Shown: in pieces, positions 8,527-11,928 of the stretch
Numbering within the stretch: the stretch's first letter is position 1
Layout: each line of letters begins with the position of its first letter
Assembly: GCF_003426775.1 (NCBI RefSeq)
Contig: NZ_QJUG01000021.1
Location: 1 to 54,946, forward strand
DNA length: 54,946 nt
Direction of reading: 5' to 3'
Origin: Allorhizocola rhizosphaerae
GTDB lineage: Bacteria > Actinomycetota > Actinomycetes > Mycobacteriales > Micromonosporaceae
Made by a program: the position numbers and the translations under genes
Notes under the pieces: generated by a model
The model's database searches: none
What the model was told of the DNA's origin: nothing
The model's input: only the letters and a program-made list of their open reading frames with translations

Positions 8527-8982
8527 TCAGCGACCGTACACGCCGATGAGGGTGCCGCTGGCCAGCGGTTGAGCCTCCTTGATCGCCTGGTGGAGCTGCC
8601 CGGCATCCGGATTGGGCGGCAACTGTACGGCCTCGGCCAGCGCGTGCAGCTGGAAGACGTACCGGTGCGGTGCGTCGCCGACCGGCGGTTGCGGGCCGCC
8701 CCAGCCGGTCTCGCCGAAATCATTGGGCCACTGCTGGGCGTTGCCAGGGGCCGCGCCCTCGGAAACCCACTGGGTCTCAGGAGCGATGCCCGACACCAGC
8801 CAGTGCAGGAAGGTCCCGCTCGGCGCGTCGGGATCCTCGCACAGCAACAACAATTCCGCGGCGTCGCGTGGCACCTGGGACCACGCGAGCGGTGGGGAGA
8901 TGTTGCCGCCCAGATGGCTGAACCGGTCCGGGATCCACTCCCGGTCGCCAAACGCCGGACTGGTCAACTGGAGTTCGGTCAT
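8527..8982 (-). CDS. YbhB/YbcL family PEBP-like protein
   Basis: 151 residues starting MTELQLTSPAF at 8982, with GGGTAAGGG directly before the ATG; the frame extends upstream but those residues are antisense to other sequence. The PEBP fold is shown by the order typical of the YbhB family: ISPPLAWSQVP, LLLLCEDPDAPSG, FLHWLVSGI, GWGGPQPPVGDAPHRYVFQLHAL and a C-terminal GTLIGVYGR. The ligand-pocket DPDAP and the GxxPPxGxxHRY motifs are intact. These proteins are called Raf-kinase-inhibitor-like by homology, but their bacterial role is poorly known. Confidence 0.92.
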   Translation of the reverse strand: MTELQLTSPAFGDREWIPDRFSHLGGNISPPLAWSQVPRDAAELLLLCEDPDAPSGTFLHWLVSGIAPETQWVSEGAAPGNAQQWPNDFGETGWGGPQPPVGDAPHRYVFQLHALAEAVQLPPNPDAGQLHQAIKEAQPLASGTLIGVYGR

Positions 8983-9095: not shown

Positions 9096-9156
9096 GTTGA
9101 TCACGAAGTTGGTGCCGCGCCGCGCCGTCGAACATGGGCGTAATTTCATGATCAAC
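9096..9156. repeat. 61-bp palindromic element, copy 1
   Basis: Arms GTTGATCACGAAGTT (9096-9110) and AATTTCATGATCAAC (9142-9156) are inverted repeats (13 of 15 pairs) around a 31-nt GC-rich core. A second element of exactly the same length lies at 11794-11854 and matches at 48 of 61 positions. Bases 3 and 59 change together between copies and keep their pairing. The copy sits in the leader of the receiver-only regulator gene. Confidence 0.8.
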
Positions 9157-9231
9157 AGGAAGGGGAGGTGGGCGGGAGAGTGGGGGGTAGCAGGGATGTG
9201 GGTGAGGGTGAGGGGTGGGAGTGTTGGGGAT

Positions 9232-9645
9232 GTGAGCTTGCGTTGCCTGATCGTGGACGATAGTCCGCACTTCCTGGAGGCCGCCCGTGGTTTGCTCCAG
9301 CGGCAGGGCGTCGACGTCGTGGGCGTGGCCGGCACGGGGGCCGAGGCGGTCGCGCTTGCCGAGCGGCTGCGGCCGGATGTGGCCCTGGTCGATGTCGGGC
9401 TTGATGGGGAGAGCGGATTTGATGTCGCTGGAAGGCTGGAGGGGACGTCGGCGATCCTGATATCGACGCGGGATCGGGAGGACTTGGCCGATCTGGTCGA
9501 GGCGAGCCCGGCCATCGGCTTTCTGTCCAAATCGGACCTTACCGGGGCGGCGATCCGGGGCCTGCTCAGCGCGCCTCAAGGAACGCCAGCACGGCAAGGA
9601 CCCGCCGGTGGTCGTCGTCCGCCTCAGCCAGGCCGAGCTTCGTGA
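9232..9645 (+). CDS. Stand-alone response regulator receiver protein
   Basis: 137 residues from GTG 9232 (ribosome site GGGGA very close; ATG 9196 is an alternative). One receiver domain with CLIVDDSPHF (acidic pair), VALVDVGLDGESGFD (phospho-acceptor Asp), ILISTRD (Ser/Thr switch) and IGFLSKSDLT (Lys). No output domain follows; the last 25 or so residues (GTPARQGPAGG...) are encoded antisense to the end of the NarL gene, an 80-bp tail-to-tail overlap. Probably a phosphate sink or partner of the histidine kinase encoded at 10265. Confidence 0.8.
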   Translation: MSLRCLIVDDSPHFLEAARGLLQRQGVDVVGVAGTGAEAVALAERLRPDVALVDVGLDGESGFDVAGRLEGTSAILISTRDREDLADLVEASPAIGFLSKSDLTGAAIRGLLSAPQGTPARQGPAGGRRPPQPGRAS

Positions 9646-10228
9646 GGATGCTTCTGACGTGCTTTTCGACGGTACCCTCGGTCACCCACAGCCGGCGGGC
9701 GATCCCCGCGTTGGACCGGCCCTCGGCCATGAGGCTGAGCACATCCCGCTCCCGCGCGCTCAACACGTCGAGCGGATCGTCGCGCCGCCGGGCCGAGACG
9801 AGCTCCTGCACCAGCGCCGGATCGACCACTGAGCCGCCCTTGGCGACGCGTTCCAGCGTGTCGACGAAGTCCCCCACATCCGTGACCCGGCTTTTGAGGA
9901 GGTACCCAACGGCCTGCCCGGTGGCCAGCAGCCGCATCGCGTGCTCGACTTCGGCATACCCGGATAAGACGAGAATGGCCACGTCGGGCAGTTCTTCGCG
10001 GATGCGCGACGCGGCCTGCAGCCCCTCGATGGTGTGCGTGGGCGGCATCCGGATATCGACCACCACGAGATCCGGCCGCTGCTGGTGAACCAGGGCCAGC
10101 AGCGCCTCCGCGTCGCCCGCCTGACCGGCGACGTCGAACCCGTTGCGCTCCAGCAGGCTGGCCAAACCCGCCCGCAGCAGCACGTCATCGTCGGCGACGA
10201 CCACCCGCAACCCGGTCATGACAAGCAT
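9566..10228 (-). CDS. NarL/FixJ family DNA-binding response regulator
   Basis: 220 residues. I start at ATG 10228 (MLVMTGLRVVVADDD) because GGGGTGG lies 6-7 nt upstream; ATG 10219 has no such site. Receiver domain: VVADDDVLLRAG, LVVVDIRMPP with the phospho-acceptor Asp, VLSGYAE, YLLKSRV. LuxR-type HTH at the C-terminus: LSARERDVLSLMAEGRSNAGIA, EGTVEKHV, ILTKLGL. Divergent from the histidine kinase gene with only 36 bp between starts, so the two form a two-component pair. Confidence 0.93.
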   Translation of the reverse strand: MLVMTGLRVVVADDDVLLRAGLASLLERNGFDVAGQAGDAEALLALVHQQRPDLVVVDIRMPPTHTIEGLQAASRIREELPDVAILVLSGYAEVEHAMRLLATGQAVGYLLKSRVTDVGDFVDTLERVAKGGSVVDPALVQELVSARRRDDPLDVLSARERDVLSLMAEGRSNAGIARRLWVTEGTVEKHVRSILTKLGLAEADDDHRRVLAVLAFLEAR

Positions 10229-10264
10229 TATCGACCACCCCCGAGGGCTCGCTACACTGCGGTG

Positions 10265-11662
10265 ATGGGCGGGCTCACCCGGCGCGCGATCATTGCCGGA
10301 GCCGCGCTCGCGGTGATCATCGCGGGTGCCTTCGCGGTGCTGCTCTCCTCGATCTCCCAGCTGCGCGAGGCACAGCTGCGGCTGGAGCGCTCGACCCAGG
10401 TGCTGGTGTCGGCGAACCGGCTCGAACGGCTGGTCGTCGACATGGAGACGGGCCTGCGCGGGTTTGCGCTCACCGGCGATGAGGACTTCCTCGAACCGTG
10501 GCACGCTGCAAGCGCGGTGTTCCCGGGCGAGGCGCAGACCCTTGCGAGCCTGGTGGCCGACGATCCCGCACAGCAGGCCCGGACGCGCGAGATTTCCGAC
10601 GCCGGCTCGGCATACATGCGCGAATACGCCATCCCGCTGATCGACACGGCCCGCCGCGACCCGGCCGCCGCCCGCACAACCCAGGTCACGCAGGAAGGCA
10701 AGCAACGCATCGACGCGCTTCGGGCGGACTTCGATGCCATGGTCGCCACCGAGCAGGCCGCCGCCGACAACCAGCGCCGCAGCGCCAACGAGTACGCCAT
10801 GCGCGCCACAGCGGCCGGGATTGCCGGGCTCGCCGGGTCGCTGCTCCTCATCGCCGCCTACACCGGATATGTGACCCGGGCGGTCGTCGCGCCGGTGCGC
10901 CGCGTTGCCGGTGCCGCGCAACGGCTCGCCGCGGGCGACCTCGGCGCGCGAGTGGCCGGCCGTGGCGTGGGCGAGGTCGGGGTACTGAAAAACAGCTTCA
11001 ACACGATGGCCGCCACACTGGCCCGCAACTCCGACGAGCTCGCCGCCTCCCGGCAGCGCATCGTCACCGCCGCCGACCAGGCGCGGCGGCGTATCGAACG
11101 CGACCTGCACGACGGCATCCAGCAGCGGTTGGTCGCGTTCGTGCTCGACACGCGGGCGGCGCGCGAGATGGTGTCGCAGGAGGACCGGCCGGAGCTGGCG
11201 GGCCAGCTCGACCGGCTCACGGCCGGGCTCGGCGAGGCGGTCAACGAGCTGCGGGAGATCTCGCGCGGCATCCACCCGGCGATCCTTTCCGAGGCCGGGC
11301 TTGCCGTGGCGCTCAAGGCATTGGGCCGGCGCAGCCCGGTGCCGGTCGAGCTGGACCTCGACGTTGCGGGCCGCCTGCCGGAGCCGGTCGAGGTGTGCGC
11401 GTACTACGTCGTGTCCGAGGCGCTCGCCAACGCGGCCAAGCACGCGCAGGCGTCCTTCGTGACGATCCGGGCGCATGCCCGGGATGGGTTGCTGCGTCTG
11501 GAAATCAGCGATGATGGTGTGGGCGGCGCGGCCTCCGGCAGGGGCTCCGGCCTTGTCGGGCTGACCGACCGGGTCGAGGCGCTCGGCGGCACGGTGACCG
11601 TCACGAGCCCGCCCGGCGAAGGCACGACCCTGGCCGCCGACCTGCCCATCGCCGCCAATTGA
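10265..11662 (+). CDS. CHASE3-HAMP sensor histidine kinase (HisKA_3 type)
   Basis: 465 residues from ATG 10265 (GTG 10262 in frame just before). A first transmembrane helix (about 8-30) is followed by an extracytoplasmic CHASE3 domain (LERLVVDMETGLRGFALTGDEDFLEP), a second helix (about 180-205), a HAMP domain (RRVAGAAQRLAAGDLGARV) and the NarX/DesK-type dimerisation helix RRRIERDLHDGIQQRL with the phospho-acceptor His. The ATPase ends with SEALANAAKHAQ (N box), DDGVGG and GSGLVGLTDRVEALGG. Partner of the NarL regulator encoded divergently. Confidence 0.95.
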   Translation: MGGLTRRAIIAGAALAVIIAGAFAVLLSSISQLREAQLRLERSTQVLVSANRLERLVVDMETGLRGFALTGDEDFLEPWHAASAVFPGEAQTLASLVADDPAQQARTREISDAGSAYMREYAIPLIDTARRDPAAARTTQVTQEGKQRIDALRADFDAMVATEQAAADNQRRSANEYAMRATAAGIAGLAGSLLLIAAYTGYVTRAVVAPVRRVAGAAQRLAAGDLGARVAGRGVGEVGVLKNSFNTMAATLARNSDELAASRQRIVTAADQARRRIERDLHDGIQQRLVAFVLDTRAAREMVSQEDRPELAGQLDRLTAGLGEAVNELREISRGIHPAILSEAGLAVALKALGRRSPVPVELDLDVAGRLPEPVEVCAYYVVSEALANAAKHAQASFVTIRAHARDGLLRLEISDDGVGGAASGRGSGLVGLTDRVEALGGTVTVTSPPGEGTTLAADLPIAAN

Positions 11663-11665
11663 CCT

Positions 11666-11790
11666 CTTCGGGCCACCCTCTTCGGGCCACCCTCTTCGGG
11701 CTGGCCTCTTTGGGTTGACCACTTCCGGTGGCCTCTTCGGGTCGGCCGCTCGGGTCGGCCGCTCGGGTCGCCTTTCTCGGGCGACCCCCT
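11666..11790. repeat. Cluster of short degenerate tandem repeats
   Basis: Directly after the kinase stop, CCTCTTCGGGCCACC is repeated with small changes four to five times, followed by TCGGCCGCTCGGG repeated in tandem. The tract ends where the second 61-bp palindromic element begins. It may serve as terminator-like or recombinogenic sequence; no gene is seen in it. Confidence 0.65.
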
Positions 11791-11793
11791 CCG

Positions 11794-11854
11794 GTCGATC
11801 ATGAAGTTAGTGTCACGACACGTCGTCGAGCATCGACGTAAGTTCATGATCGAC
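11794..11854. repeat. 61-bp palindromic element, copy 2
   Basis: Arms GTCGATCATGAAGTTA (11794-11809) and TAAGTTCATGATCGAC (11839-11854) pair at 15 of 16 positions around a 29-nt core. Same length and 48/61 identity with the copy at 9096-9156. It lies between the end of the kinase gene and the PrsW-like gene. Confidence 0.82.
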
Positions 11855-11928
11855 GCGAGAGGGGTGGGCTGCGTGGCAGAGTTTTACTGCTAGCTGGTAG
11901 GTGGGTTGGTGGGTGGCCGGGGAGACCG

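Follow-up and report, generated by a model that had tools for sequence, protein, structure and literature searches.

The window, i.e. the whole stretch of 54,946 nucleotides from Allorhizocola rhizosphaerae that was analysed, contains a two-component locus with one copy of a palindromic element on each side. The relevant features, with the genes named by family, are as follows:

8530 to 8982, minus strand: PEBP-family gene, on one side of copy 1
9096 to 9156, plus strand: palindromic element copy 1, 61 bp, in which GTCGAACATGG sets the forward orientation (R1 model, 77.4 bits, E = 2.8e-16)
9157 to 9167, plus strand: purine-rich right tail of copy 1 (family consensus approximately GCGGAAGGGGG), running into G-rich DNA up to about 9235
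about 9235 to 9645, plus strand: receiver-domain gene, on the other side of copy 1
ending at 11662, plus strand: CHASE3-HAMP histidine kinase gene, on one side of copy 2
11794 to 11854, plus strand: palindromic element copy 2, 61 bp, in the orientation of copy 1 (R1 model, 85.2 bits, E = 4e-18)
11855 to 11865, plus strand: purine-rich right tail of copy 2 (GCGAGAGGGGT)
from about 11935, plus strand: PrsW-family protease gene, on the other side of copy 2

An earlier note on this DNA had described two 61-bp elements, identical at 48 of 61 positions and both extragenic, and the sequence bears this out, as both copies lie outside called genes; the pair changes it cited between them (3/59, 16/46 and 22/40) are likewise real. 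The right ends of both copies face the start of a gene, in the same direction, and the tail positions 62-72 carry 0.4-1.0 bit of information (n = 138 copies). A covariance model built from 22 copies of the family matched copies 1 and 2 in the window and no other site, while about 0.2 such palindromes are expected per mononucleotide-shuffled window, which places two copies far above chance. In the arms (positions 1-16) copy 2 forms 15 of 16 Watson-Crick pairs, the mismatch being 13/49, whereas in copy 1 positions 9/53 and 13/49 do not match and 16/46 is a G.T pair. Two further observations concern the surrounding DNA: the segment between the stop codon of the histidine kinase gene and copy 2 (11660-11790) is a short degenerate tandem repeat of CTCTTCGGGCCAC-like units, and the stand-alone receiver-domain gene (9235-9645, plus strand) overlaps by about 80 bp the 3' end of a NarL/LuxR-type response regulator gene on the opposite strand (9566-10219).

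A search of the 8.8-Mb host genome with the covariance model, a check of the kind that the earlier note had proposed, revealed many intergenic copies and not just the two. The family comprises at least 163 members (at least 150 found by the model, and 13 weaker ones), of which 117 out of 138 are exactly 61 bp in length and 11 out of 138 overlap a called gene. According to the profile of the copies, the element ends are GTYGATC and GATCRAC; the flanks are purine-rich or C-rich. Neighbouring copies less than 200 bp apart are without exception (23 of 23) inverted doublets with their left ends inward, separated mostly by a spacer of 8 bp. The window element had no match at the gathering score in Rfam 15 and no copies in the plasmid and phage collections. 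There are also half-elements (L020, L025, L026, L028), in which the left arm alone is kept and is followed by purine-rich DNA near a gene end; we considered them as insertion-sequence ends and rejected this, as no transposase was recognised at the four loci inspected. Integron attC sites were dropped as well, the copies being dispersed and forming no arrays; moreover, the element ends do not fit what we take to be the attC core site.

The suggestion that the window copies form an RNA structure controlling the regulator genes does not survive this distribution: the same element adjoins many unrelated genes, and, given its dispersal over the genome, we rejected an RNA switch of the two-component genes. 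A more general RNA-level explanation would make the elements terminators of transcription or hairpins at RNA 3' ends, read from the right end inwards, that halt read-through downstream of genes. It would agree with the position of the right end, which lies between -15 and 25 bp from the 3' end of a gene for 49 of the 62 copies that have such a neighbour (14 of 63 for the left end), with the 31 copies between convergent genes, and with the C-rich lead-in on the sense strand. On the other hand, the 63 copies between tandem genes show no orientation preference (31:32), 14 copies, window copy 1 among them, lie between divergent genes, no U-run follows the element, and the stem is not GC-rich (the arms are AT-rich in a genome of 67% GC). 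Terminators would also predict neither the absence of arm compensation within the host genome nor the specific matching with a nuclease gene, both described below. We regard this explanation as quite unlikely.

The earlier note had interpreted the cited pair changes as a sign that the hairpin itself is under selection. Among the 117 full-length host copies, pair 3/59 is TG in 47, TA in 36, CG in 25 and CA in 9 (Fisher p = 0.098), i.e. it is a free pyrimidine/purine choice on either side; pair 22/40 shows no association (p = 0.42) and the association at pair 16/46 is weak (p = 0.02), while over half of the host copies have C.A at pair 6/56. In total, the arms of the host copies form 1365 of 1638 possible Watson-Crick pairs, compared with 1357 +/- 7 when the 3' arms are shuffled (269 of 2000 shuffles were as high). 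The arms vary independently in the host genome, with no compensation, as decaying copies would show, and a set of 22 copies pointed the same way; therefore, the cited pairs lend no support to hairpin selection. Between genera the picture is different: in one sequence from each of 23 genomes, collected with a pairing-aware model and hence biased towards pairing, the arms form 307 of 322 Watson-Crick pairs vs 249 +/- 5 for shuffled arms. Here the arms differ yet match each other, mostly with a CGACACGCCG-like motif at position 23, and a matching change such as CATGAA/TTCATG to CAGGGA/TCCCTG is plain in the sequences. Support for hairpin selection would come only from these matching between-genus changes, which would fit a dyad DNA site bound by a dimeric protein just as well as they fit a folded hairpin.

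Comparison of related genomes points to a partner gene. At the purA-purD junction of several genera (G016/G050, G022, G026, G008, G030, G010 and G003) there is an extra gene between palindromes of about 61 bp, in a version own to each genus. In genera without the extra gene, purA and purD are near each other (with a gap of 35-176 bp in most and 346 bp in one) and there are no palindromes; in two genera (G027 and G029) the extra gene is present and the palindromes are absent. Its product comprises an AbiEi-like N-terminal region, which matches AbiEi models (PADLOC, down to 8e-26), and a DUF559/MTES_1575 nuclease domain. In genus g11 (L358 and L357, compared with L314) the nuclease gene at this junction is inverted relative to purA and purD, with palindromes at both ends. 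Single copies have also been gained or lost between G016 and G050, which belong to one genus (g17), without a link to any nuclease gene. Upstream of polA, the palindrome with its C-rich and G-rich flanks, about 140 bp in all, is present in G050, and the corresponding junction of G016 is short; at other sites one copy is missing or a different palindrome (GTGCAGTTTCGGGG...) is found in the same place. A second palindrome family of G016 (GCAGTTTCGGGGAAAGTGC), which has its own DUF559 gene, sits (L346, about 430-500, and L364) where the orthologous site of G050 has an element of the window type.

Palindromes are associated with the AbiEi-DUF559 gene well beyond this junction; they are specific to the subfamily and to the genome, and enzyme and palindrome co-diverge. 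In the ten genomes searched, AbiEi-DUF559 homologues are located at many places and bracketed by palindromes of 57-66 bp, with different subfamilies having quite different palindromes; such bracketed genes were found in 8 genera. A fixed rule, which misses a few visible pairs, detected a matched palindrome pair around 15 of 30 AbiEi-DUF559 genes, i.e. about half of the homologues searched have none under this rule, and around none of 45 control genes taken from four of the searched genomes (Fisher p = 7e-8). Twelve flanking palindromes were used as queries; each was repetitive in the genome of its nuclease and, among the matches listed, occurred in none of the other seven. The matches listed, in which both strands may count, numbered dozens in G016 and G038, about 25 for one palindrome in G047, and fewer for the others. 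Enzyme identity and palindrome similarity are correlated (Mantel r = 0.775 for n = 18, reached in none of 5000 permutations), although this co-divergence partly reflects shared descent, because several of the units sit at the same purA-purD junction; distant paralogues within one genus have mostly unrelated palindromes.

Two genomes outside the discovery set, reached later through the plasmid collection, provided a check and repeat the pattern. A DUF559 gene of Tsukamurella tyrosinosolvens NCTC13231 (WP_170181047.1) lies between two 64-bp palindromes, and this palindrome occurs in 8 records of T. tyrosinosolvens and in no other organism in the collection searched. The homologue of Arthrobacter sp. 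StoSoilB13 has related 57-bp palindromes at its flanks, which recur on both of the strain's replicons in that collection and again in no other organism there. A Nonomuraea homologue and a second Tsukamurella gene have no matched palindrome pair. The plasmid and phage collections contained short distant forms of the nuclease and not the long form, and no relative was found in viral contigs.

In the host genome the sole homologue at E < 1e-12, on contig C165, is dead. Residues 8-84 and 90-199 are in different frames due to a frameshift, and the nuclease domain is gone. One side of this pseudogene carries an intact copy of the window element (C165:2640-2700), and the other a broken copy (C165:1967-2002), 28 of 36 positions identical to the right half of the window element and fused where the nuclease domain should start. 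The pseudogene is located between a phosphomannomutase-like and a uracil-phosphoribosyltransferase-like gene (both recognised by eye) and not at purA-purD. Its two flanking copies of the window type, one intact and one broken, tie the window family to the AbiEi-DUF559 type of enzyme. The host family is probably now a fossil population without an intact driver, although the host assembly, being split into 493 contigs, may lack an intact nuclease gene that the strain has.

The enzyme profile matches 3hrl, an endonuclease-like protein (4e-7), and 3r3p, a mobile intron protein (4e-5), which we take to be I-Bth0305I. In an alignment of 25 proteins E202, D235 and E246 are invariant and H253 and D262 are conserved in at least 90%; judging by their positions, the conserved E, D, H and D would be the catalytic residues of the EDxHD family. 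According to a review (PMC3943268), enzymes of this family form dimers on targets almost 60 bp long. Because the nuclease is related to the EDxHD family and such a dimer target fits a 61-bp dyad, we take the palindrome to be the long DNA site of the enzyme.

The palindromes could instead be dyad binding sites, of a regulon or chromosome-organising kind, for the AbiEi-like protein, alike because selection follows the specificity of the protein and not because they spread. Dyad symmetry and fixed length fit such sites, as does the presence of each genus's own version at the same gene junctions, and an autoregulated gene could have sites at its own flanks, as the nuclease gene does. Binding sites under selection would not be expected to be cleanly gained and lost between two species of one genus, nor to persist in at least 163 host copies despite the dead homologue; the conservation of catalytic residues and the independent decay of the arms in the host genome also speak against them, and we consider this interpretation unlikely.

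As to the kind of element, the earlier note had proposed a REP/BIME-like or hairpin-transposon element. The likeness holds, with many intergenic copies, the 3'-end bias, inverted doublets and a repeat-flanked partner gene, and what fails is the expectation of a REP-associated transposase: Y1/RAYT is absent from the host genome, and the linked gene encodes a nuclease of another class. The family resembles the REP/BIME/REPIN elements and their RAYT (PMC2817692, PMC3733652, PMC3116915) in being composed of high-copy extragenic palindromes with genome-specific sequences, which lie preferentially near the 3' ends of genes and form inverted doublets, and in having a cognate gene bracketed by the repeat. 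REPs are defined as palindromes of 20-40 bp with an unpaired GTAG or CGTC tag at one end (PMC3733652), whereas the elements studied here are about 61 bp long, roughly twice the usual length, their profile lacks the tag, and their enzyme is an AbiEi-DUF559/EDxHD nuclease and not a Y1 transposase. If the copies were classical REPs or BIMEs moved by a RAYT (Y1) transposase, one would expect the intergenic location, 3'-end bias and inverted doublets seen here, as described for REPs (PMC3733652); however, Y1_Tnp (PF01797) matched nothing in the host genome, in a search where 5 of 14 controls gave matches, and was present in just 16 of 101 relatives and missing from most high-copy carriers. Neither of the two defining REP/RAYT features, a Y1 gene and a tagged palindrome of 20-40 bp, is found, so the family is not RAYT-REP, and mobilisation by a RAYT is extremely improbable. 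An origin as MITE-like elements of an ordinary DDE transposon, with the 15-bp arms as terminal inverted repeats, would account for the inverted arms, constant size, high copy number and independent decay; yet the recurrent neighbours of the host's own and the related copies examined belong to common gene families, with no recurrent transposase, no target duplication is evident on reading the flanks, and the gene that recurs between palindromes is the DUF559 nuclease. We consider a DDE transposon a very improbable source.

Our preferred interpretation, which we hold to be probable, is that the window elements are dispersed copies of a 61-bp palindrome family whose cognate partner is a gene combining an AbiEi-like DNA-binding domain with a DUF559/EDxHD (Vsr-like) nuclease, and that this enzyme binds the copies and spreads them by breaks and repair, leaving a fossil population in the host. 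The nuclease is probably the driver of this REP-like repeat family, with mobilisation and cleavage as presumed activities. The complete unit would be palindrome, nuclease gene and palindrome, about 1.2 kb in total, and the remaining copies would be singles, inverted doublets with the 8-bp spacer, or pairs bracketing ordinary genes. The nuclease would bind the palindrome as a long dyad site, and DNA breaks followed by repair copying would spread or convert the copies in the manner of homing. Such a mechanism would account for the uniformity of copies within genomes, the genus-specific versions at the same junctions, the inverted doublets, and the gain and loss of single copies. We tentatively suggest that this may be a new class of selfish DNA, in which an AbiEi-EDxHD nuclease would recognise a palindrome some 60 bp long and, by cutting and repair copying, spread hundreds of intergenic copies and keep them alike; each enzyme lineage would have its own palindrome, turnover of specificity would rewrite the sites of a genome together, and death of the enzyme would leave fossils, as in the host.

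The EDxHD homing endonucleases, such as I-Bth0305I (PMC3943268), resemble the enzyme described here in the sequence of the nuclease domain, including the conserved E, D, H and D, and their dimers are reported to occupy targets close to 60 bp in length; unlike them, the present enzyme has an AbiEi-like fusion, shows no intron around its gene, and is linked to dispersed palindromes. With the AbiEi-type antitoxin regulators (type IV toxin-antitoxin, phage abortive infection) it shares the N-terminal region, and it differs from them in the C-terminal nuclease domain. Mitochondrial GC clusters and double-hairpin elements are short palindromes for which spread by gene conversion is suspected, and the genomes that contain them carry homing endonuclease genes; they are organellar, unlike the family described here, and to our knowledge there is no one-to-one pairing of enzyme and palindrome among them.

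The window family would work like REP/RAYT with a different class of enzyme, and the probability is substantial that, because of this enzyme, it forms a separate class. In the open-access literature we found no described partner enzyme for these abundant actinobacterial palindromic repeats, and the DUF559 domain still carries the label of unknown function; one-to-one matching between enzyme and palindrome, as seen in several actinobacterial families, would address both questions together. It would carry the REP/RAYT principle over to an unrelated class of enzymes, offers testable pairs with very long recognition sites, and bears on why the repeats are alike within a genome yet differ between genera at the same gene junctions.

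Two features, the bias to gene 3' ends and the pairs around ordinary genes, are not accounted for by the proposed mechanism. In the two genomes of genus g17 all 21 of 21 neighbouring pairs less than 2.5 kb apart have their left ends inward, and many of them enclose an ordinary gene. We considered that such pairs might carry gene cassettes and rejected this, as there is nothing special about the genes between them, and copies appear and disappear singly. The inverted pairs at L294-L313 (G016 and G050) bracket single ordinary genes in either gene direction, e.g. MGMT-like, D-aminoacyl-tRNA deacylase-like, SDR and others. Finally, one or two DnaA-box-like boxes (TTATCCACAG / TTGTCCACAG) are present just upstream of AbiEi-DUF559 genes (L305, L314, L315, L326, L320, L318 and L360), also in genera without flanking palindromes.
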